Positions 1 to 10,447 of a stretch of DNA of 48,303 nucleotides are shown here, one piece after another (the stretch's first letter is position 1; every line of letters begins with the position of its first letter). The DNA lies in the NCBI GenBank assembly GCA_945865695.1, contig CAMBFX010000003.1, positions 1-48,303 of the forward strand, written 5' to 3'. This stretch comes from Chryseobacterium gleum. GTDB taxonomy: Bacteria > Bacteroidota > Bacteroidia > Flavobacteriales_D > UBA2798. The notes under the pieces were generated by a model, which did no database searches, was not told the origin of the DNA, and saw only the letters and a program-made list of their open reading frames with translations. Made by a program: the position numbers and the translations under genes.

Positions 1-1812
1 ATGGACTTCTTGGGATTAAAAACGTTGACGATTATTCGTGATGCATTAGCATTGATCAAGAAAAATAAAAATATTGATATCGATATTGATAAAGTTCCAT
101 TGGATGATGCAAAAACTTTAGAATTGTATCAGCAAGGTTCTACCACTGGAACATTCCAGTTTGAATCGGTTGGAATGCAAAAATATTTGAAGGAATTAAA
201 ACCCGATCAGTTTGAAGATTTAATTGCGATGAATGCCTTGTATCGTCCGGGACCGATTGAATATATTCCAAGTTTTATTAAGCGTAAACATAAATTAGAA
301 GAAGTTTCTTATGATTTACCAGAGATGGGCGAACTCCTCGAAGAAACGTATGGAATTACGGTTTACCAAGAGCAAGTAATGTTGCTCTCGCAAAAACTCG
401 CGAATTTTACTAAAGGCGATGCCGATACTTTGCGAAAAGCAATGGGTAAAAAGTTGATTGATGTTTTGAATAAAATGAAAAATAAATTTATCGATGGAGC
501 TGTTGCCAATGGGCATCCCGCAGATAAATTAGAAAAAATATGGACCGACTGGGAAGCATTTGCATCGTATGCTTTCAATAAATCACATTCTACTTGCTAT
601 GCTTTTGTAGCATTCCAGACTGCGTATTTAAAAGCACATTACCCTGCAGAATACATGGCTTCGGTATTAACGCATAACTTGAGTAATATCGATAATATTA
701 CTTTCTTCATGGAAGAATGTAAGCGAATGGGCATTCCTGTATTAGGACCAGATGTAAATGAAAGTGATTTTCAATTTTCGGTGAACGAGAAAAATGAAAT
801 TCGTTTTGGAATGGGCGCGATTAGAGGTGTTGGAGAAAATGCGGTAATTTCTATTGTAGAAGAAAGAGATAAAGCAGGAAAATTCAAATCAGTTTTTGAA
901 TTGGTGCGCAGAATAAATTTAAAAACGTTTAATAGAAGAACTTTTGAAAGCTTGGTTTTAGCAGGAGCATTGGATAGTTTCGGAATTAAACGTCCGGCTT
1001 ATTTCATGGAGGAAAGTGCAGGAAATAATTTCATTGGGAAAATATTAAAATATGGAAATTCCCATCAAGATGGAGAAAATTCCAATCAACAATCTTTATT
1101 TGGTGATTCGGTTGAAGTAGAAATAGCAGAACCAGCAGCACCACATAGCGAAGATTGGGGAACCTTAGAAAGATTGAAGAAAGAAAAAGAAGTAGTAGGA
1201 TTTTTTATTTCAGGACATCCATTAGATGATTATAAAATAGAGTTGAAACATATTTGTGAGGGAACATTAAGTGAATTGAATGAAGTGGGAACTGGTTTCT
1301 CCTCTAAAGTTTTTAAAATTGGTGGAATCATTTCTACTGTAGAACATCGCACCACCAAGACTGGAAAACCGATGGGATTTTTTACCGTGGAAGATTATCA
1401 TGCCACTACCCGATTTGTTTTGTTTGACGAACAGTATATGAAATTGCGCCACATGTTAGTGGAAAATACTTTTGTTTTCATTCATGGAAAAATGGAAAAA
1501 AGAAGATTTGGAAATATGGACGAACATGAATTCAAGATTTCTCAAATGGAAATTTTGGCATTGGTCAGAGAGAAATTAGCGAAGTGGCTGCAAATAAAAT
1601 TGGATTTGATTGATGTGAACGAAAAATTGATTGATGATATAGAAAAATTATTTACTGAAAATAAAGGAAAATGCAGAGTGAAATTTTCTGTTTCAGATTC
1701 TGCGGAACAGATTAAAATAGATTTGCCTAGTAACGGGAACGGGATTAATGTAACGAATGAATTGTTGTTTGCGCTGGAAGAAATGAAATTGGGATATGAG
1801 ATTTTGACTTGA
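1..1812 (+). CDS. dnaE: DNA polymerase III subunit alpha, C-terminal half (5' end outside window)
   Basis: This is the replicative polymerase subunit, of which only the last 603 residues are in the window. The first residues (MDFLGLKTLT) match the palm motif that in E. coli alpha carries the third catalytic aspartate. The following QFESVGMQ, LYRPGP, YQEQVM, LRKAMGKK and FNKSHS motifs belong to the thumb and fingers region. A helix-hairpin-helix lies near residues 270-325 (GMGAIRGVGENA) and an OB fold near 430-515. The last roughly 80 residues correspond to the tau-binding tail. The PHP domain and the other two catalytic aspartates must lie upstream of base 1. The gene ends in MKLGYEILT followed by TGA, and this end is repeated several times downstream. 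Confidence 0.97.
   Translation: MDFLGLKTLTIIRDALALIKKNKNIDIDIDKVPLDDAKTLELYQQGSTTGTFQFESVGMQKYLKELKPDQFEDLIAMNALYRPGPIEYIPSFIKRKHKLEEVSYDLPEMGELLEETYGITVYQEQVMLLSQKLANFTKGDADTLRKAMGKKLIDVLNKMKNKFIDGAVANGHPADKLEKIWTDWEAFASYAFNKSHSTCYAFVAFQTAYLKAHYPAEYMASVLTHNLSNIDNITFFMEECKRMGIPVLGPDVNESDFQFSVNEKNEIRFGMGAIRGVGENAVISIVEERDKAGKFKSVFELVRRINLKTFNRRTFESLVLAGALDSFGIKRPAYFMEESAGNNFIGKILKYGNSHQDGENSNQQSLFGDSVEVEIAEPAAPHSEDWGTLERLKKEKEVVGFFISGHPLDDYKIELKHICEGTLSELNEVGTGFSSKVFKIGGIISTVEHRTTKTGKPMGFFTVEDYHATTRFVLFDEQYMKLRHMLVENTFVFIHGKMEKRRFGNMDEHEFKISQMEILALVREKLAKWLQIKLDLIDVNEKLIDDIEKLFTENKGKCRVKFSVSDSAEQIKIDLPSNGNGINVTNELLFALEEMKLGYEILT
1777..1810 (+). repeat. dnaE 3'-end repeat, native copy
   Basis: These 34 bases, which encode the last residues EEMKLGYEILT of DnaE plus the first base of the stop codon, recur without mismatch at 3397-3430. 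They recur in diverged form at 1903-1936 and at the end of the 3111-3344 copy. The two perfect copies are about 1.6 kb apart and bracket a RhuM gene, as the ends of an inserted segment would. Confidence 0.9.
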
Positions 1813-1902
1813 GGATCCTGACGAACTCGAGGACTCGTTGTCTGGATTAGTTCGACCATCGCTTTTCATTTCGATTGCATATCATGAAAATCGGGTCTCA
1901 CT

Positions 1903-1936
1903 AAGATGAAGTTGGGGTATGAGATTTTGACTTGAG
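1903..1936 (+). repeat. dnaE 3'-end repeat, second copy
   Basis: This short copy of the dnaE end still encodes KMKLGYEILT followed by TGA. The differences from the native copy within MKLGYEILT are silent. It lies about 90 bases after the true dnaE stop, and the DNA between (1813-1902) is not dnaE-like. No start codon or gene belongs to it. The rest of 1937-2079 is AT-rich leader sequence of the next gene with nothing else recognisable. Confidence 0.85.
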
Positions 1937-2079
1937 ATTTTTTTTAACTCTTTTCGTATTTTGAATTATTTTAATGGTTAAATTTATTTATTATTTTCAC
2001 TCAATGAAAAGTCTAAATTAGGAGTAGCATTACACTTTATTTGAGTTAGAAAAAACATCGAAGAAAAAAATAAAAAGAA

Positions 2080-3069
2080 GTGAGTACAGAATTAATCATA
2101 TACCAAACCGAAGACGGTAAAACAAAAATACAAGCTCGGCTTAAAGATGAAACGGTATGGCTTACACAGGAGCAAATTGCTGTTTTGTTTCAGCGCGACC
2201 AATCTGTTGTTTCAAGGCATATTAACAATGTATTTAAAGAGAGCGAGTTAGACAAAAAAAGCAATATGCAAAAAATGCATAATGCAAATTCAGATAAACC
2301 GATTCTTTTGTATAACCTAGATGTGGTTATTTCCGTAGGTTACCGGGTAAAATCACTACGTGGTGTACAATTTCGCAAATGGGCTACAGCCTTGATAAAA
2401 GAATATATCATCAAAGGCTTTGCCATGAACGATGAGTTATTGAAAGAAGCAGGAGGTGGCAACTATTTTGATGAATTACTTGCACGAATAAGAGATATCC
2501 GTTCTTCAGAAAAAGTATTTTGGCGTAAAGTTTTAGATATTTATGCTACAAGTATAGATTATGAAGCTTCTGATTCACTTTCTCAAACATTTTTCAAAAC
2601 TATACAAAATAAAATGCACTGGGCAGCACACGGGCATACTGCTGCCGAAATAATACACCAAAGAGCTGATGCAGGAAAGCAACATATTGGTTTAACTCAT
2701 TTTAAAGGCAATACACCAACCAAACAAGAAACCGAAATAGCTAAGAATTATTTAAATAAACAAGAACTCGAAATTTTGAATCGGATGGTAACTGCATATC
2801 TAGAAGTAGCCGAAATACAAGCAATGAATAGACAGCCCATGTTTATGAAAGATTGGATTCTTCGCCTCGATGGCTTTTTAGCTATGACTGGCAAAGACAT
2901 ATTAGACCATACTGGAACAATTAGCCACGAAACAGCAATAGAAAAAGCGCATTTGGAATATGAAAAATACAAAAAACTGACCGGAAGCGAACTTAGTAAA
3001 GTTGAGCAGGATTTTGTAAAACAAATTGAAAATACAGCAAATCAATTAAAAAAAAGTAAAAAGAAATAA
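2080..3069 (+). CDS. RhuM family protein (full length)
   Basis: This 329-residue protein belongs to the RhuM family, named from a gene on Salmonella pathogenicity island 3. Its biochemical role is not established. The N-terminus (residues about 5-65) has the family pattern ETVWLTQEQIAVLF followed by a helix-turn-helix-like stretch (QSVVSRHINNVF). The signature YNLDVVISVGYRVKS and FRKWAT follow near residues 87-110. The C-terminal half carries the EIAKNYLNKQELEILNRMV and MFMKDW motifs of complete members. The start is GTG, because an in-frame stop lies 9 bases upstream. It sits between copies of the dnaE end and is the first of three RhuM genes within 4 kb, which points to an acquired accessory module. 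Confidence 0.9.
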   Translation: MSTELIIYQTEDGKTKIQARLKDETVWLTQEQIAVLFQRDQSVVSRHINNVFKESELDKKSNMQKMHNANSDKPILLYNLDVVISVGYRVKSLRGVQFRKWATALIKEYIIKGFAMNDELLKEAGGGNYFDELLARIRDIRSSEKVFWRKVLDIYATSIDYEASDSLSQTFFKTIQNKMHWAAHGHTAAEIIHQRADAGKQHIGLTHFKGNTPTKQETEIAKNYLNKQELEILNRMVTAYLEVAEIQAMNRQPMFMKDWILRLDGFLAMTGKDILDHTGTISHETAIEKAHLEYEKYKKLTGSELSKVEQDFVKQIENTANQLKKSKKK

Positions 3070-3110
3070 TTATTCCGAAATAGTTCTTTTAACATACGAT
3101 CAAACTGGAC

Positions 3111-3344
3111 AAAGTTCTACAGACGAAAAATTTAGATTTACCCGATGTGAATGAAAAACGGATTGATGATAAAGAAAAATTATTTACAGAACATAAAGGA
3201 AAATGCAGGGTGAAGTTTTCTGTTTCTGATTCTGCAGAACAGATTAAAATTGATTTGCCTTCTAATGGAAATGGAATTAATGTAACGAATGAATTATTGT
3301 TTGCGCTGGAAGAAATGAAACTTGGTTACGAAATATTAACTTAG
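3111..3344 (+). pseudogene. Duplicated DnaE C-terminal tail
   Basis: The frame reads KVLQTKNLDLPDVNEK and continues to the same MKLGYEILT end as dnaE, so it is a second copy of roughly the last 75 codons. A GTG at 3147 could start a 65-residue peptide. Comparing by eye the last 48 codons with native dnaE, about 17 codons differ and every difference is synonymous; a few amino-acid changes occur only further upstream. That pattern means the copy came from a dnaE gene that diverged under purifying selection in another lineage, not from a recent local duplication. Nothing shows that it is expressed. Confidence 0.85.
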
Positions 3345-3364
3345 AAATATTAAGATTAATTATT

Positions 3365-3390
3365 TCCACCTACGCTAAAGCTACGGTGGA
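3365..3390. repeat. Small inverted-repeat element (TCCACC...GGTGGA)
   Basis: The sequence has outer arms TCCACC and GGTGGA and an inner GCTAAAGC dyad. Elements with a core like TACGCTAAAGCTACG are widespread intergenic repeats in several bacterial groups. That identification is from memory and is tentative. It separates two copies of the dnaE end. Confidence 0.4.
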
Positions 3391-3396
3391 CGAAGG

Positions 3397-3430
3397 GAAG
3401 AAATGAAATTGGGATATGAGATTTTGACTT
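3397..3430 (+). repeat. dnaE 3'-end repeat, perfect distal copy
   Basis: This copy is identical over 34 bases to 1777-1810 and is followed by TAG, not TGA, so it also closes the reading frame. It directly follows the small inverted-repeat element. Between here and the next gene (3431-3543) nothing further is recognised. Confidence 0.9.
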
Positions 3431-3543
3431 AGGGAATTAATCTAATTCTATGCATAAACTCAATTCACAAGACGTTCTATTTCGATCCCCCATTTGAAAT
3501 GAACCCTTCTGCAATCCAACTGTACTATATCTAAATTAGCCTT

Positions 3544-3927
3544 ATGAAAAATTTATACATCCTCCTATTATCGCTTATTTCAATAAATTCATTAGCACAA
3601 ACAGAGGTAATGAGCATGATGGGAATGAAGGAGCATGTTTTCCGCACACTTCAAGATGATTTTTTCTATGACTCAAAAGACACTATAGTTATTGAGCAAG
3701 AAAATGGAAATTTAGTGAATTATATTTTCAAAGGTGGAATAGTTGATCACGCTATTATTGTGAGAAGTGCCAATCAAATGACAACTACTTTAACTTGGCT
3801 AGAAACATTAACGAAAGAAGATGATTATTACTTTTATTCCATGAATGATCATCTTTATGGTCTATTTTTAATGGAATTAATGGATGAATCTTATTTTGGA
3901 TTATTTGTAACAAGAATGCCGGATTAA
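3544..3927 (+). CDS. Small secreted protein of unknown function
   Basis: This 127-residue protein opens with a signal peptide (MKNLYILLLSLISINSLAQ; cleavage likely after the Ala or Gln near residue 18-19). The remainder is mixed alpha/beta in appearance, with DTIVIEQENG and ARSANQ-like strands and a C-terminal YGLFLMELMDESYFGLF segment. I recognise no family. It is monocistronic, follows the last dnaE-end copy, and converges on the next RhuM gene with 50 bases between. It may have been the original neighbour of dnaE or part of the inserted material. Confidence 0.7.
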   Translation: MKNLYILLLSLISINSLAQTEVMSMMGMKEHVFRTLQDDFFYDSKDTIVIEQENGNLVNYIFKGGIVDHAIIVRSANQMTTTLTWLETLTKEDDYYFYSMNDHLYGLFLMELMDESYFGLFVTRMPD

Positions 3928-3977
3928 AGATTTAAAGTAGTGATATGATGTAGTTGAAAATGGCCATCATCTAATTT

Positions 3978-4730
3978 TTAATTCCATAATTCATAAAGTT
4001 TTATTTCATCTTCGTTGAGAAAATTCTTAGCAATTCCTACATCTGATTTCTTAACCGAAACTTTTCCTGCCTTATCAAAGGATTTCATACCCAATAAAGG
4101 CAATTCTGCATCTACTCTTCGATAAATCAATTCTGCAGCGGTTTGTTCACTAATTGCCCACAATAATTTATTCTGAATAATCTTAAAAAATTCAACAGTA
4201 CTTTCATCCTTCGGGCTGTAATCGATGCTCGTGGTAAAAATATCTTTTATTTTCTGATAGAAAAACCGTTCTGATAAACGTATTTCCCGAATACGTTCTT
4301 GCAATTCATTGAAATAATTCATTGAATTTCCTGATTTGAAACGGTCATCGTTAAGAGCAAAACCTTTAATAATATATTCTTTTAATCTTTGGGTAGCCCA
4401 GATTCGAAATTGAGTGCCTTGTGGCGATTTAACTCGATATCCTACAGAGATGACTACATCAAGATTGTATAAAAACACCTCATTTTCTTGAACTTTACCT
4501 TGTATTGCGCCATGTTGAGTGGTTGTTCGGGATTTCCGAACAACCACTTTTTCGTCTAATTCTCCTTCCGAAAATAATCCTTTAATGTGTTCGCTGATTG
4601 TAGACTTAGCTTTGCCAAATAATTCACACATTTGAGATTGTGTTAACCAAACAGTTTCATCTTCCAGTTTAACATCAATTTTGATATTTCCTTCTTGGTT
4701 TTGATAAATTAAAATTTCACCTGTATTCAT
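3978..4730 (-). CDS. RhuM family protein, C-terminally shortened
   Basis: This 250-residue protein has the complete RhuM N-terminal half: ETVWLTQSQMCELFGKAKST, a helix-turn-helix-like region, and YNLDVVISVGYRVKS with FRIWATQRLKEYIIKGFALND near residues 88-125. It then follows the family to GIAKNFLNEDEIKLYELWN and stops. The full-length relative at 2080-3069 continues about 90 residues beyond this point, including the MFMKDW motif, and nothing resembling that tail was seen past the stop. It is therefore probably a truncated copy that may be non-functional, or a short natural variant. The start ATG at 4730 is unambiguous. Confidence 0.85.
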   Translation of the reverse strand: MNTGEILIYQNQEGNIKIDVKLEDETVWLTQSQMCELFGKAKSTISEHIKGLFSEGELDEKVVVRKSRTTTQHGAIQGKVQENEVFLYNLDVVISVGYRVKSPQGTQFRIWATQRLKEYIIKGFALNDDRFKSGNSMNYFNELQERIREIRLSERFFYQKIKDIFTTSIDYSPKDESTVEFFKIIQNKLLWAISEQTAAELIYRRVDAELPLLGMKSFDKAGKVSVKKSDVGIAKNFLNEDEIKLYELWN

Positions 4731-4786
4731 TTATTAAAATATTGTTGTCAAACAAAGTTAAAATATTAAATGAATGAGAATAGAAA

Positions 4787-4807
4787 AAACTAAATTTTGT
4801 AGTTGAG
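4787..4807. repeat. Direct repeat flanking the RhuM-Fic segment, left copy
   Basis: Twenty of these 21 bases match 6211-6231 (shared core AAAACTAAATTTTGTAGT). Weaker similarity with short gaps extends about 30 bases further left in both copies (TGAGAA, then A-rich). It lies upstream of the shortened RhuM gene. The pair brackets the RhuM-Fic gene and a small gene remnant. Confidence 0.6.
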
Positions 4808-4842
4808 TTTATTCAAGAGAATTCAAAAGCAATTTTAACTAA

Positions 4843-4944
4843 TCATTTTTTTTCTAGGTGAAACAAATCTCCATTCTTCAACTCATACTCCCTATTAAAC
4901 GCTTCCTGCGAAACTTTAAAATAATCGGCAAGGATGAGAATGGT
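4843..4944 (-). pseudogene. Remnant of a gene tail, possibly ImmA/IrrE-like
   Basis: Read on the minus strand, this 33-codon stretch gives TILILADYFKVSQEAFNREY and then ELKNGDLFHLEKK before TGA, with a stop just upstream. The LADYFKVSQEA pattern resembles the C-terminal region of ImmA/IrrE-type metallopeptidases or a small helix-turn-helix. The zinc motif and everything upstream are missing. The surrounding 4731-5075 interval otherwise holds only a direct repeat and a short purine-rich repeat. The family identification is weak. Confidence 0.35.
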
Positions 4945-4980
4945 TTATTTGGATAAACACAATTTAAATGGGAAAATTTA

Positions 4981-5008
4981 CCGCAGAGAACGCAAAGGGC
5001 GCAAAGGG
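4981..5008. repeat. Intergenic CGCAGAGAACGCAAAGGGCG repeat
   Basis: The unit CGCAGAGAACGCAAAGG followed by GCGCAAAGGG has a seven-to-nine-base internal periodicity. Similar sequences are common as dispersed intergenic repeats in many genomes. It lies about 70 bases past the end of the RhuM-Fic gene and probably encodes nothing. The plus-strand frame through it is spurious. Confidence 0.5.
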
Positions 5009-5075
5009 AAGACATGAATTCAAATTCTCAACTCCCCATCAAATTCACAATCAATTTCACCATGATATCCATTTC

Positions 5076-6011
5076 TTAGGGTTTGCTTTCTGCAATAAGG
5101 ATAGTGATTGCAACGAGTGCATTATCCGCAATATATTTGCTTCCATCAGATCGAAAAAGTTTTTTGTTTTTATCAAGGAAGAAAACAAATAATCCTGCTG
5201 CGATTCTTTTGTTTCCATCAGAGAAAGAATGATTCTTTACAACGAAATATAAAAGATGAGCGGCTTTTAAATAAATGCCTGGATATAATTCCTTCCTCTC
5301 AAAAGTTTGATAAATGGTTTCCAATGAACTTCTAAATGATTTATCTTTTTGATTACCGAAAAGTTGTCCAGCTTTGTGAGCTTCTCTCCAAATTTTAATT
5401 TGATCAATGGCTTCTTTGTAATTTAATTGAACTGTTTTTTCTTTTCCCGCATTAGGAATGCTTAATTTTTGATGATCATATTTATCTAATAAATCTAAAG
5501 CATGTGAATATTCGGTCACCACTTTTAATAATCCTATTGCTTCGTCACTCGAGAGTTCTTTTTTCTTTACTACATTTTCGAGTAACTTGATACTTTGTTT
5601 TAATTCATGAAGCTGTTCTTCTTTCGCTTTTAGTTTATCAATATTGACAGCGTAACCTTGGAGCAAATAATCTTTCAAACGTTGAGTTGCCCATTGACGG
5701 AATGCAATTCCTTGTTTGGAATTTACTCTATATCCCAATGAAATAATTACATCTAAATTATAATAATCAATAGTTCTTTCAACAGTTCTACCTGCCTCCT
5801 TTTGAACTGTTGCATTTTTTGCAACAGTTGACTTATAATTAAGCTCCTTTTCTTTGAATATGTTACTTAAATGCCTTGATATAACAGACTTATCCCTTGC
5901 GAATAATTGTGCTAATTGGTTTAATGAGAGCCAAACAGTTTCGCTTTCGAAACGAACTTCAACATGATTTTTTCCGTCCTTACTTTTAAAAATTTCTATT
6001 GCTTTTTCCAT
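5076..6011 (-). CDS. RhuM/Fic-DOC fusion protein
   Basis: This 311-residue protein joins a RhuM N-terminal region (ETVWLSLNQLAQLFARDKSV, YNLDVIISLGYRVNS, FRQWATQRLKDYLLQGYAV) to a C-terminal Fic/Doc domain. A linker with LKAKEEQLHELKQSIKLL, probably a coiled coil, separates them. The Fic motif is HSFSDGNKRIAAG at about residues 261-273. The Lys after Asn (GNKR) is the Doc-type variant; phage P1 Doc phosphorylates EF-Tu and does not transfer AMP, so phosphotransfer is the better guess. The start is taken as the ATG at 6011; an upstream TTG at 6041 would lie inside a 27-bp palindrome. No separate antitoxin gene is adjacent, and the RhuM region might serve for regulation. Confidence 0.88.
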   Translation of the reverse strand: MEKAIEIFKSKDGKNHVEVRFESETVWLSLNQLAQLFARDKSVISRHLSNIFKEKELNYKSTVAKNATVQKEAGRTVERTIDYYNLDVIISLGYRVNSKQGIAFRQWATQRLKDYLLQGYAVNIDKLKAKEEQLHELKQSIKLLENVVKKKELSSDEAIGLLKVVTEYSHALDLLDKYDHQKLSIPNAGKEKTVQLNYKEAIDQIKIWREAHKAGQLFGNQKDKSFRSSLETIYQTFERKELYPGIYLKAAHLLYFVVKNHSFSDGNKRIAAGLFVFFLDKNKKLFRSDGSKYIADNALVAITILIAESKP

Positions 6012-6028
6012 ATTTTTCAAATGTTTCA

Positions 6029-6055
6029 GAGGTGCTCGCAATTTGCGACCACCTC
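6029..6055. promoter_or_regulatory. 27-bp palindrome, candidate operator
   Basis: The arms GAGGTGCTCGCAA and TTGCGACCACCTC are complementary except at one position and are separated by a single base. The site ends 18 bases before the ATG of the RhuM-Fic gene and is clearly richer in G+C than its surroundings. A dimeric DNA-binding protein, perhaps the helix-turn-helix-bearing RhuM-Fic product itself, would fit. A hairpin in the mRNA leader is an alternative, since the loop is too short for an ideal stem-loop but not excluded. Confidence 0.55.
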
Positions 6056-6210
6056 CATTAATAGGTTAATTTTATTAGTAATAAATTAGATTAAATTGTT
6101 TAATAATTTTATAAAATCTATTAAACTCTGGATTTGGGATTCGATAAACAAAATATCCCTTTTCAATTCTGATGATGTAAAAATAAAATGGATTTTTGAG
6201 AAGAAAAAAT

Positions 6211-6231
6211 AAAACTAAATTTTGTAGTCGA
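6211..6231. repeat. Direct repeat flanking the RhuM-Fic segment, right copy
   Basis: This is the partner of 4787-4807, with one mismatch in 21 bases. The two copies are in the same orientation and about 1.4 kb apart. The interval 6056-6210 between the palindrome and this repeat contains no recognisable gene. Confidence 0.6.
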
Positions 6232-6239
6232 AATAAAAA

Positions 6240-6584
6240 CTACTCTTCCTCAATCACCGTAAATTTCTCTGGAGCCACATAACTCAATTCTTCAGAAACG
6301 AAAAAAATGGTATTTGATTTTTGAATAGCGAAAACTTTGTAATTGTACACGGTATCAACAACGGCATTTCCAATTTGGTTTCCATGAGCATAGCGTTCTA
6401 CTACTTTCCTGAAATATTTGGTAGGTTCATAATAATATAAAACTTGTTCATCTCCGTTTTGCTCCACCTTATTAGGTTTACCTTTTTTTGAAAGTAAAGA
6501 GTCGATTGATTTTCCTTCCCAACGTTGGATGCTGCATCCGATTAATAATAATGAGGAAAGCAGAATGAGGATAATTGTTTTCAT
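6240..6584 (-). CDS. Small lipoprotein, unknown function
   Basis: This 114-residue protein has a type II signal sequence with lipobox LLIGC, the lipidated Cys being residue 17. The mature part begins with IQRWEGKSIDSLLSKKGKPN and then VEQNGDEQVLYYY. This opening resembles the SmpA/OmlA (BamE-like) pattern, where a short helix is followed by G-x-P and a strand ending in aromatic residues, but the resemblance is weak. It is likely anchored in the inner leaflet of the outer membrane. It stands alone, and its promoter must lie in the 366-base gap to its right. Confidence 0.75.
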   Translation of the reverse strand: MKTIILILLSSLLLIGCSIQRWEGKSIDSLLSKKGKPNKVEQNGDEQVLYYYEPTKYFRKVVERYAHGNQIGNAVVDTVYNYKVFAIQKSNTIFFVSEELSYVAPEKFTVIEEE

Positions 6585-6950
6585 ATTAAAAGCGTGTTGG
6601 TGACAATTAATTTAACCAAACCTAATCCAACAAGTTTCGTTTCTCACTTTTTTGGAGCTATTTTAAAAATAGATGTTAAATAACATGAACGGCGTTATAA
6701 ATCATCGTCCAAATTAAATAGCAAAGTTTATTAGATAGCAAATTGACAATTATGCAAATTCTATTGGTTGAGTGTTTTAAAATTCAATATTAAATCAATT
6801 AAATTCTGGATATAAAATCCATTCCATTAATATTTCGCCACTCATTTTCGCTGGATTTCTACCTATATCCCGATAAAATACCACTCATGTAAATAAATAG
6901 CCTATTTGCTTTCCATTTTCTATTTTCGCATTCTAAAATTTTACCTATTT
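6585..6950. other. Gene-free divergent intergenic region
   Basis: This 366-base AT-rich stretch separates the leftward lipoprotein gene from the rightward M16 operon, so it should hold the promoters of both. I found no convincing Bacteroidota promoter pair (TTTG and TAnnTTTG at correct spacing), no hairpin, no RNA gene and no gene remnant. Confidence 0.6.
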
Positions 6951-8264
6951 ATGAAACTAACTCATTACCTGTGTTTATCGGGATTAGCAATGCTAAGCAT
7001 CGGTGTTTCTGCACAGAAAATTGAATTTCAGGAATACGACCTGAAAAATGGTTTGCATGTCATTTTACATGAAGATCATACAACTCCCATCGTTACTGTA
7101 TCTGTATTGTATCATGTGGGTTCAAAAAACGAAGATCCAAAACGTACAGGATTCGCACATTTTTTCGAGCATTTAATGTTTGAAGGTTCTGCGAATATCG
7201 GTCGTGGCGAATACGGAAAAATTATCGAAGAAAATGGTGGTGTTTTAAATGCCAACACTTCTTTTGATAGAACCTATTATTATGAAATTCTTCCTTCCAA
7301 TCAAATGGAATTAGGTTTGTGGATGGAAGCAGAAAGAATGCTTCAGTTAAAAGTTGATTCTGTAGGTGTAGAAACACAACGCGGTGTAGTAAAAGAAGAA
7401 TTAAATCTTCGTGTATTGAATCAACCTTATGGAAGTATCCTTCAGCAAACATTCAGTCACGCTTTTAAAGTTCATCCTTATCGTTGGACACCCATCGGTG
7501 ATGCGCAATACATCAATGCGGCCACCTATGAAGAATTCATGGATTTTTACAAAACATTTTATGTTCCTAATAATGCAACTATTTCTATCGCGGGAGATTT
7601 TAAACCTGAAGACGCAAAAAAATGGATTGAGAAATATTTTGGACCGATTCCAAAAGGAACAAAAGCAATTCCTCGTCCGAAAGAAGTAGAGCCTAAGCAA
7701 ACTTCTGAAATCAGAGATACTGTTTATGATAATATCCAATTACCAGCTGTAATCATGGGTTATCATATTCCAGGCCAAGGAACACCTGATTATTATGCAG
7801 TGAATATGTTGGCGCAATTATTATCACAGGGAGAAAGTTCAAGAATCGCTAAAAATGTAGTGGACAAACAACAAAAAGCGATTTTCGCAGGAGCCTTTCC
7901 ATTGCCTTCAGAAGATCCTGGATTGACTTTGATGTTTGGAATTTGTAATATGGGAATTCAACCAGATGATTTGGAAAAAGCAATCGGTGCTGAAATTGAA
8001 AAAACACAAACAGAATTAATCAGTGATGAAGAATTTCAGAAATTGAAAAATCAGATTGAATCGGATTTTATTACTTCTAATTCAAGTATGGCTGGAATTG
8101 CAGAAAGTTTAGCTAACTATGAAGTTTATTTCGGTGATGCTAATCTTATCAATACAGAAATCGATCGTTACATGAAAGTAACGAAAGAAGATATTCAACG
8201 TGTAGCAAAAGAATATTTCAGAAAAGAAAATCGCGTTGTTTTATATTATTTACCTAAACCATAA
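6951..8264 (+). CDS. Secreted M16 family zinc peptidase (catalytic subunit)
   Basis: This 437-residue protein is an M16 (insulinase/pitrilysin-like) metallopeptidase. It has the inverted zinc motif HFFEH at residues 70-74, preceded by GFAHFF, and the distal glutamate in VVKEEL near residue 150. The start ATG at 6951 was chosen because it begins a clean signal peptide (MKLTHYLCLSGLAMLSIGVSAQ). A longer frame from 6906 would put 15 hydrophobic and aromatic residues before it. The C-terminal domain has GESSRIAK but lacks the conserved Arg/Tyr pair, as is usual for the zinc-binding member of two-chain M16 enzymes. The partner gene follows after 35 bases. It probably works in the periplasm on peptides. 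Confidence 0.93.
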   Translation: MKLTHYLCLSGLAMLSIGVSAQKIEFQEYDLKNGLHVILHEDHTTPIVTVSVLYHVGSKNEDPKRTGFAHFFEHLMFEGSANIGRGEYGKIIEENGGVLNANTSFDRTYYYEILPSNQMELGLWMEAERMLQLKVDSVGVETQRGVVKEELNLRVLNQPYGSILQQTFSHAFKVHPYRWTPIGDAQYINAATYEEFMDFYKTFYVPNNATISIAGDFKPEDAKKWIEKYFGPIPKGTKAIPRPKEVEPKQTSEIRDTVYDNIQLPAVIMGYHIPGQGTPDYYAVNMLAQLLSQGESSRIAKNVVDKQQKAIFAGAFPLPSEDPGLTLMFGICNMGIQPDDLEKAIGAEIEKTQTELISDEEFQKLKNQIESDFITSNSSMAGIAESLANYEVYFGDANLINTEIDRYMKVTKEDIQRVAKEYFRKENRVVLYYLPKP

Positions 8265-8299
8265 TTCTTCCTTCAACGAAAGAATAATGAAATAATAAA

Positions 8300-10447
8300 A
8301 TGAAAAAAATGAAAAAGCTAAAATATATATCACTTGTTTTGATTGCGGCAATCATGGTCAATTCAGCCAATGCACAAAAAACAACTAAAGTAACTGCAAC
8401 TGGAACTGAAAAACTAGATCGTTCAGTAAGACCAACAGCAGGAACAGCTGCAACTATCCAATTGAAAAAACCTGAGATGTTCACTCTGGATAATGGATTA
8501 AAAGTTTTTGTTGTTGAGAATCACAAAAACCCGAGTGTTTCACTTTCCATCCAATTGGATATTCCTCCAATGAAGGAAGGAGATAAAACAGGAGTTTCTC
8601 AATTTTCTGGAGAACTTTTAGGAACAGCAACAGAAACAAGAACTAAGGATCAAATCAATGAGGAAGTAGATTTCATTGGCGCCTCCTTAAATACATCAGG
8701 TGGTGGAATTAGTGGTGCTTGTTTGAAAAAACATTTACCTAAATTAATGGATGTACTAACAGATGTATTATTGAAACCAGTTTTCAATCAGGAAGAATTG
8801 GATAAATTAAAAACACAAATGAAATCCAATCTTGCTTCAAATAAATCTTCACCGGCCAACATGGCTTCAAACCTTAAAGCGAAATTGGTTTACGGAGCTA
8901 ATCATCCCTATGGAGAAGTGATGATGGAAGCTAATGTGGATAATATTACATTAGAAGATTGTAAGAAATATTACGCTGATTATTTCCGTCCTAATGTTGG
9001 TTATCTTGCAATTGTTGGTGATATCACTAAAGCTGAAGCAAAAGAATTGTGTGCTAAATATTTTTCAGGGTGGAAAAAAGGAGAAATTCCAAAATCTTAT
9101 ATACCGCCAGTGCAAGGACCTGCTCAAACAAAAGTTTGTTTTGTTGACAAGCCGGGTGCTACACAAACAACCATTCATATTACTTATCCTGTAGATTATA
9201 AACCCGGGAGTGAAGATGCGATAAAATGTGCAGTGATGAATGATATTTTAGGTGGATCATTTTCTGCTCGTTTATTCAGAAATCTTCGTGAAACTTATCG
9301 TTTGACGTATGGCGCCTATTCTGATTTATCTTCAGATAAATATGTAGGAAATTTTGATGCTAATGCAGATGTTAGAACTATTGCCACAGACAGTGCATTA
9401 GTACAATTCTTTTATGAGATTAATAAAATGCGCAATGAACCTGTTTCACAAAGAGAATTACAAGGAGTAATCAATAATTTGACCGGTATATTTTCATTGG
9501 CTTTAGAACAACCTTCTACCATCGCAAGTTTTGCAATGAACATTGATAAGTATAATTTATCTCCCGACTATTATGCTAACTATTTAACTGCACTTTCAAA
9601 AGTAACTATTGAAGATGTTCAAGCGATGGCTAAAAAATATTTGAAGCCAGAAAATGCTTATATCATTTTAGTTGGAGACAAAGAAGTAATTTCAAAAGAT
9701 GTAGCCAAATACAGCAAAGACGGAAAAATAGCTTATTATGATAGCTACGGAAATGATTTTGTTGAATTGAAAAAAGCGCCTGAAGGTGTAACTGGATGGA
9801 CTGTTTTAGATAATTATATAAAAGCAGTTGGTGGAGAGGTAGCCATGAAAAAAGTAACTAGTTTGAAAATTGTGATGAGCGCTACACTTCAAGGAATGGC
9901 AATTGACCAAACTGTAATGAAAAAAGCGGTTAAAGGTGGAGGTAATAAAATGAAATCTTCATTTGGTTCAGGTATGATGGTTTTACAAAGCTCAGTTTTT
10001 GATGGCACCACTGGATATTCAGCAGATATGCAAAGTGGCAAAAAAGATTTTACTCCAGAAGAAATCACCGAAATGAAAATGGATGCGCAGATGTTTCCAG
10101 AATTATTTTACAAAACAAATGGATACCAATTTAATTTATTAGGAATAGATAAAGTAGATGAGAAGGAAGCCTATAAAATCGAAATGGTAAAACCAAATGG
10201 TGATAAGCAAACGGAATGGTATGATGTTGCTACAGGTTTTCAAGTGATGACTGCTGTTACGCAAGATGGAAATACTATTGAAACTAAATTTTCTGACTAC
10301 AAAGAAATTGAAGTGAAGAAAATAGGGAAATTGAAATTTCCGAATAAGGTTTCTGCAATGGTTGGCCCAGGAATGGTTTTGGAATTCGTTGCAAAAGAAA
10401 TATTAGTGAACTCTAAATTAGATGATGCTTTGTTTAGTGCAAAGTAA
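8300..10447 (+). CDS. Secreted M16-like peptidase subunit without zinc motif, with C-terminal extension
   Basis: This 715-residue protein starts with a signal peptide (MKKMKKLKYISLVLIAAIMV, cleaved near NSANA-Q). Two M16 domains fill residues about 45-480. At the place of HxxEH the sequence is QFSGELLG, so it cannot bind zinc. Its second domain has LRETYRLTYGAYS, which holds the Arg/Tyr pair missing from the upstream partner. The two proteins thus complement each other as a heterodimer. Residues about 490-715 form an extra beta-rich domain (LDNYIKAVGGEVAMKKVTSL, and later TKFSDYKEIE) resembling LolA-like outer-membrane lipoprotein carrier folds in pattern. It is in an operon with the upstream gene and ends before a terminator. 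Confidence 0.9.
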   Translation: MKKMKKLKYISLVLIAAIMVNSANAQKTTKVTATGTEKLDRSVRPTAGTAATIQLKKPEMFTLDNGLKVFVVENHKNPSVSLSIQLDIPPMKEGDKTGVSQFSGELLGTATETRTKDQINEEVDFIGASLNTSGGGISGACLKKHLPKLMDVLTDVLLKPVFNQEELDKLKTQMKSNLASNKSSPANMASNLKAKLVYGANHPYGEVMMEANVDNITLEDCKKYYADYFRPNVGYLAIVGDITKAEAKELCAKYFSGWKKGEIPKSYIPPVQGPAQTKVCFVDKPGATQTTIHITYPVDYKPGSEDAIKCAVMNDILGGSFSARLFRNLRETYRLTYGAYSDLSSDKYVGNFDANADVRTIATDSALVQFFYEINKMRNEPVSQRELQGVINNLTGIFSLALEQPSTIASFAMNIDKYNLSPDYYANYLTALSKVTIEDVQAMAKKYLKPENAYIILVGDKEVISKDVAKYSKDGKIAYYDSYGNDFVELKKAPEGVTGWTVLDNYIKAVGGEVAMKKVTSLKIVMSATLQGMAIDQTVMKKAVKGGGNKMKSSFGSGMMVLQSSVFDGTTGYSADMQSGKKDFTPEEITEMKMDAQMFPELFYKTNGYQFNLLGIDKVDEKEAYKIEMVKPNGDKQTEWYDVATGFQVMTAVTQDGNTIETKFSDYKEIEVKKIGKLKFPNKVSAMVGPGMVLEFVAKEILVNSKLDDALFSAK

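Follow-up and report, generated by a model that had tools for sequence, protein, structure and literature searches.

Synonymously diverged dnaE ends around a RhuM gene suggest additive recombination with a related lineage

Four dnaE ends are arranged around a RhuM gene

The window, by which we mean the whole stretch of 48,303 nucleotides that was analysed, opens within dnaE, the 5′ end of which lies past the window and contig edge. Beyond the stop codon of dnaE we found three further copies of the end of this gene, interspersed with RhuM-type genes, as follows.

1–1812, plus strand: dnaE, 3′ part, frame open from base 1 (Pfam DNA_pol3_finger, HHH_6 and OB fold)
1573–1812, plus strand: T1, dnaE's own tail, part of dnaE
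1906–1935, plus strand: T2, a 30-bp dnaE tail remnant, MKLGYEILT-TGA with two synonymous changes (BLAST E 7e-6)
2080–3069, plus strand: RhuM gene, 329 aa (PF13310; PADLOC PDC-S05, a candidate defence family), the putative cargo
3102–3344, plus strand: T3, dnaE tail copy of 80 codons plus a TAG stop (self-comparison, codon and protein alignment)
3365–3390, plus strand: short imperfect hairpin between T3 and T4, weak (z −1.8) and unique in the genome
3396–3432, plus strand: T4, a 35-bp dnaE tail remnant equal to T1, then a TAG stop (BLAST E 1e-10)
3978–4730, minus strand: second RhuM gene (PDC-S05 in PADLOC), lacking the C terminus (PF13310 positions 2–178 of 252)
5076–6041, minus strand: RhuM–Fic fusion, PADLOC PDC-S23 (profile match)

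All four dnaE ends (T1 to T4) encode MKLGYEILT followed by a stop codon, in synonymous spellings that differ, and the complete RhuM gene sits between T2 and T3. T1 ends on TGA, as does T2, which is 93% identical to dnaE over about 30 bp. Six of the terminal nine codons are changed in T3, whereas T4 retains the T1 codons, its 35 bp (3396–3430) being identical to dnaE's own end. A reading of this DNA made from its letters alone (hereafter the sequence-only reading) had pointed out a second dnaE tail 3′ of dnaE, which corresponds to T3; the two short tails were absent from it. Raw codon-usage scores favour T3 as the native tail; as the sign-swap tests were not significant (p 0.35 and 0.16; combined 0.09), codon usage was dropped as a means of deciding which tail is native.

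The gene at 2080–3069 belongs to the RhuM family on its profile match (PF13310, 348 bits against a cut-off of 33.7, positions 10–246 of 252) and matches PDC-S05 with 486 bits; it is a candidate defence gene on the basis of that database label. On the minus strand beyond T4, the truncated RhuM gene and the RhuM–Fic fusion (3978–6041) bring the number of RhuM-type genes within 4 kb of dnaE to three. An Rfam search gave no match in 1–8000, and among viral contigs we found none with a dnaE tail or a RhuM gene of the 2080–3069 type.

T3 differs from dnaE mainly at synonymous sites

Self-comparison of the window aligned 1596–1810 with 3128–3342 over 215 ungapped nucleotides at 86% identity (BLAST E 4e-66). 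A gapped protein alignment stretched T3 to 80 codons (3102–3341, with the stop at 3342–3344), rather than the 75 or so described previously, and found no dnaE similarity 5′ of 3102. Over these 80 codons, 25 differ from dnaE synonymously and 7 non-synonymously, and one codon is inserted. The amino-acid changes all lie 5′ of the last 48 codons, which agrees with the few upstream changes that the sequence-only reading had reported; its estimate of about 17 differences in the last 48 codons, all synonymous, also held, since an exact recount gave 17, of which 17 are synonymous. The stop codon differs as well. The dN/dS comparison with the native tail that the same reading had proposed yielded dS 0.85 and dN 0.058 for T1 against T3 (NG86, ungapped, 71 codons).

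If 19 substitutions fell at random within the last 49 codons, about 13 amino-acid changes would be expected, whereas we observed none (P < 1e-5). We conclude that neutral decay of T3 is rejected, as had been claimed in arguing that the copy is not a local duplication decaying as junk. The neutral-decay model still fails when half of the changes are placed in the living gene. This result bears on the possibility of an insertion with a long target duplication, or of a tandem duplication in place, with the dnaE end diverging afterwards. Direct repeats on both sides of a small selfish-type gene form the arrangement proposed for restriction–modification genes (PMC3031569), but the synonymous-only differences reject the drift of a dead copy, and homology halts at the stop codon rather than continuing. 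Such a duplication is refuted in its simple form and survives only with protein selection on the copy, which leaves it with very little probability.

The sequence-only reading had also suggested continued translation and selection of T3, in the form of a free tau-binding domain. If T3 were a functional gene by itself, or a polymerase C-terminal domain kept by selection, the lack of amino-acid change in its last 48 codons would fit. However, because the reading frame of T3 has a stop at 3090 and its sole start is an internal GTG at 3147, nothing in its sequence seems to mark T3 as a separate gene. The copy comprises the last 80 codons of dnaE only, and two of its changes, A527D and I547K, fall at conserved positions that are mostly alanine or hydrophobic among 111 DnaE sequences. 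T3 thus has neither the own start nor the conserved hydrophobic positions of a free-standing DnaE C-terminal domain. Real orthologs give the same pattern with no separate selection (see below), and about 110 other dnaE loci have no such copy. We consider a functional T3 highly improbable, and the suggestion of a free domain was not borne out.

T1 and T3 resemble orthologs from two related species

The last 200 residues of DnaE are matched at only 43–46% by genomes of the same family (n = 2), and the last 50 are poorly conserved across the group. The end of DnaE appears from these sequences to evolve fast, and we therefore tested whether the perfect conservation between T1 and T3 is strange, using 110 Bacteroidota DnaE sequences and pairs with 80–89% nucleotide identity in the tail region. 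Such ortholog pairs showed 0–9 differences in the last ~48 positions and 0–5 in the preceding 28. A Bizionia pair (L048 and L058), with differences at 5 of 28 and 0 of 48 positions, comes near the T1/T3 pattern. Since real DnaE pairs at a similar distance show a similar pattern, T1 and T3 have the appearance of an unexceptional ortholog pair from two related species. We had considered that identity of 48/48 amino acids at a dS near 0.9 might require deliberate-looking recoding, and this idea was dropped because genuine ortholog pairs nearly match these values. No tail copies 3′ of dnaE were found at the ~110 other Bacteroidota dnaE loci, which rules out dnaE as a common hotspot.

Gene-end remnants occur elsewhere in the same genome

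We searched about 1.56 Mb of the same genome, in stretches that cover about half of it, for similar remnants. At one locus (L130), a class-V aminotransferase gene (2170–3366, minus strand) is accompanied at 5930–6330 by a fragment that corresponds to its first 133 codons. The fragment is 85.5% identical to the gene and differs from it mostly synonymously (dS 0.89, dN 0.049). Homology ends at the ATG, so that the scar is mirrored to the gene start. Between gene and fragment lie a DUF559 gene, HicA with an unassigned partner gene and a further small gene, and a RhuM–Fic gene is next. This locus is unlinked to the dnaE locus, and its dS of 0.89 compares with 0.85 at dnaE. Two unlinked remnants that are equally diverged suggest donors at the same distance for the dnaE and aminotransferase remnants.

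Equal divergence of both remnants is also what co-assembled sister species would give, and the assembly, with 264 contigs and 2.8% estimated contamination, might have joined two co-occurring ones. At the 3102 junction, however, an assembler would have had no common sequence to bridge, and the bin contains only one dnaE, which makes such a join unlikely. The layout also recurs in other assemblies, on contigs of which some are hundreds of kb in length. Taken together, we regard an assembly artefact as very unlikely.

A shorter remnant lies at L150, where a 30-bp copy of the gatA tail (gatA, 8160–9575; copy, 10291–10320; 97% identity) ends at a stop codon and is located past a gene for an MNT-type nucleotidyltransferase (PADLOC PDC-S09). 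Two other repeats were observed in this genome. At L156, the end of a RelE-like toxin gene, together with the DNA 3′ of it, occurs a second time 5′ of the toxin–antitoxin pair (2051–2261 and 2794–3003, 90% identity). A 126-bp tandem array of three units at L160 (11549–11877) is made up of an ABC-F ATPase gene tail together with its spacer.

Gene-end copies are probably enriched at RhuM loci of other genomes

We surveyed 60 RhuM loci from other Bacteroidota; as controls we took 80 dnaE loci and, from the genomes that had supplied the RhuM loci, 40 matched loci of comparable size. A gene-end duplication was scored when the end of a gene was repeated within 3 kb and the middle of the gene was not. 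This was the case for 12 of 60 RhuM loci, whereas each control set gave a single such locus, among 40 matched and 80 dnaE loci respectively (Fisher, 0.013 against matched loci and 4e-5 against both control sets); the sole match among the matched controls stems from a doubtful ORF with a long exact repeat on either side of it. A stricter, hand-picked set (n = 8 loci) gave p values of 0.08 against the 40 matched loci alone and 0.003 against the pooled controls. We conclude that gene-end copies are likely to be enriched at RhuM genes, although the case is not overwhelming.

The clearest tail cases have the gene, RhuM and the copy all in the same orientation. At L250, sucD is followed by a hypothetical gene, RhuM and then a 108-bp copy of the sucD tail (96%), and at L328, pyrF is followed by a small ORF, RhuM and then a 64-bp copy of the pyrF tail (91%). 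L272 has two extra tails in the same layout as the dnaE locus. In L250 and L328 the homology reaches the stop codon and goes no further; in the window it falls short of the end of that codon by 2 bases, and in L272 by 5. By contrast, it continues beyond the stop codon in the ABC-F ATPase repeats of L160 and in the rimM tail repeat of L118, which look like plain local tandem duplications. In the latter (Flagellimonas marinaquae, 1459–1986), the rimM tail is duplicated past an outer-membrane-type gene, four of five codon changes are synonymous and homology runs 56 bases beyond the stop. Gene starts are affected at L255 and L314, where the start of an hsdR-type gene was left upstream of RhuM, which now precedes the intact gene.

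No empty sites were obtained for L250, L272, L273 and L328, which involve single-genome genera and a multi-copy gene family, and a search for adjacency of pyrF and ansA found none in relatives. In E. coli (selC region; L306–L308 and L310), RhuM lies beside tRNA-Sec, as a full gene in some strains and decayed to a pseudogene remnant in BW25113. As an old resident of this site, it proved uninformative as a test of insertion polymorphism.

These boundaries bear on site-specific integration into the dnaE 3′ end, whereby a recombinase would have inserted a small element with a replacement end, displacing T2–T4, as in e14/icd. The copies stop at the stop codon, the site was used repeatedly and the footprint of e14 is alike, with a 165-bp tail copy that has 12 nucleotide exchanges and 2 amino-acid changes (PMC11148124). 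Displaced synonymous tails are present here, the one identical stretch being the 35 bp shared by T1 and T4. However, ORFs and profile searches revealed no recombinase or integrase among the genes of 1–6600. The tails range in length from 30 to 240 bp, there is no conserved core at the 5′ boundary of T3, and elsewhere other target genes, and gene heads, serve. We consider site-specific integration unlikely.

Additive recombination at the dnaE 3′ end

We propose that T3 is a scar, left at the dnaE 3′ end by additive recombination in which a related lineage was the partner, a reading to which we assign a probability of roughly 60%. Its support comes from the four tails in differing synonymous spellings, from divergence like that of orthologs, from the recurrence of the pattern at other genes and in other genomes, and from the enrichment at RhuM loci. 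The dnaE of a related genome, brought in with neighbouring DNA, had been put forward as the source by the sequence-only reading, and fits best in view of the ortholog-like divergence and the recurrence at RhuM loci.

The incoming DNA would have comprised the terminal portion of dnaE from a relative and, after it, the RhuM gene. On one side it would pair with dnaE by homology; the other side would become joined to the recipient chromosome within the recipient's dnaE tail. A homology anchor combined with a second join in the gene end would leave one intact dnaE, a RhuM gene on the same strand immediately after it and the displaced end, T3, beyond RhuM, with ortholog-like divergence and the possibility of repeated rounds, of which T2 and T4 may be remnants. 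Repeated homology-anchored addition could in this way bring in defence genes, with old gene ends staying as remnants. The DNA may have arrived by transformation or conjugation, the joining was presumably homologous plus illegitimate, and the foreign tail may be T1 rather than T3. In this genome the layout would fit one homologous anchor and one non-homologous junction, and no dnaE similarity precedes 3102. Breakpoints always lie inside the gene end, for which random illegitimate joining alone is insufficient, and this counts against additive recombination.

We also considered, as a rather improbable variant, that RhuM-like single-gene defence candidates move as minimal cassettes, supplying the core gene in which they land with a new end of different synonymous spelling and so making insertion into essential genes (dnaE, pyrF, sucD) harmless and repeatable, possibly with a dedicated enzyme acting in trans.

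Additive recombination would suggest how recombinase-free single-gene defence or addiction genes become fixed beside essential genes. Gene ends that have diverged synonymously and lie past a newly added gene could serve as a simple search signature for recent additions and their donors. The locus also carries a caution, in that a seemingly stand-alone dnaE fragment need not be a gene.

Comparison with known systems

The locus resembles three known systems. In E. coli K-12, the cryptic prophage e14 in icd has left the icdC remnant described above, a footprint made by an integrase (PMC11148124). In both cases an essential-type gene has an intact end and a synonymously diverged tail copy lies past the insert, but the dnaE locus has an insert of only ~1.5 kb with RhuM, no integrase and four tails of differing length. 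For restriction–modification genes, insertion with long target duplication has been proposed (PMC3031569), and there, too, a small selfish or defence gene lies between long direct repeats of neighbouring DNA. The repeats at dnaE, however, are synonymously diverged like orthologs and end at a gene boundary, with RhuM or toxin–antitoxin-like genes as cargo. In the type VI secretion system (T6SS) effector–immunity arrays of Vibrio cholerae, sequential displacement has been attributed to homology-facilitated illegitimate recombination (PMC5361080). Modules enter these arrays through one homologous anchor and older gene ends are shifted downstream, as we propose for dnaE, where the anchor would instead be a housekeeping polymerase gene and the cargo a candidate defence gene.
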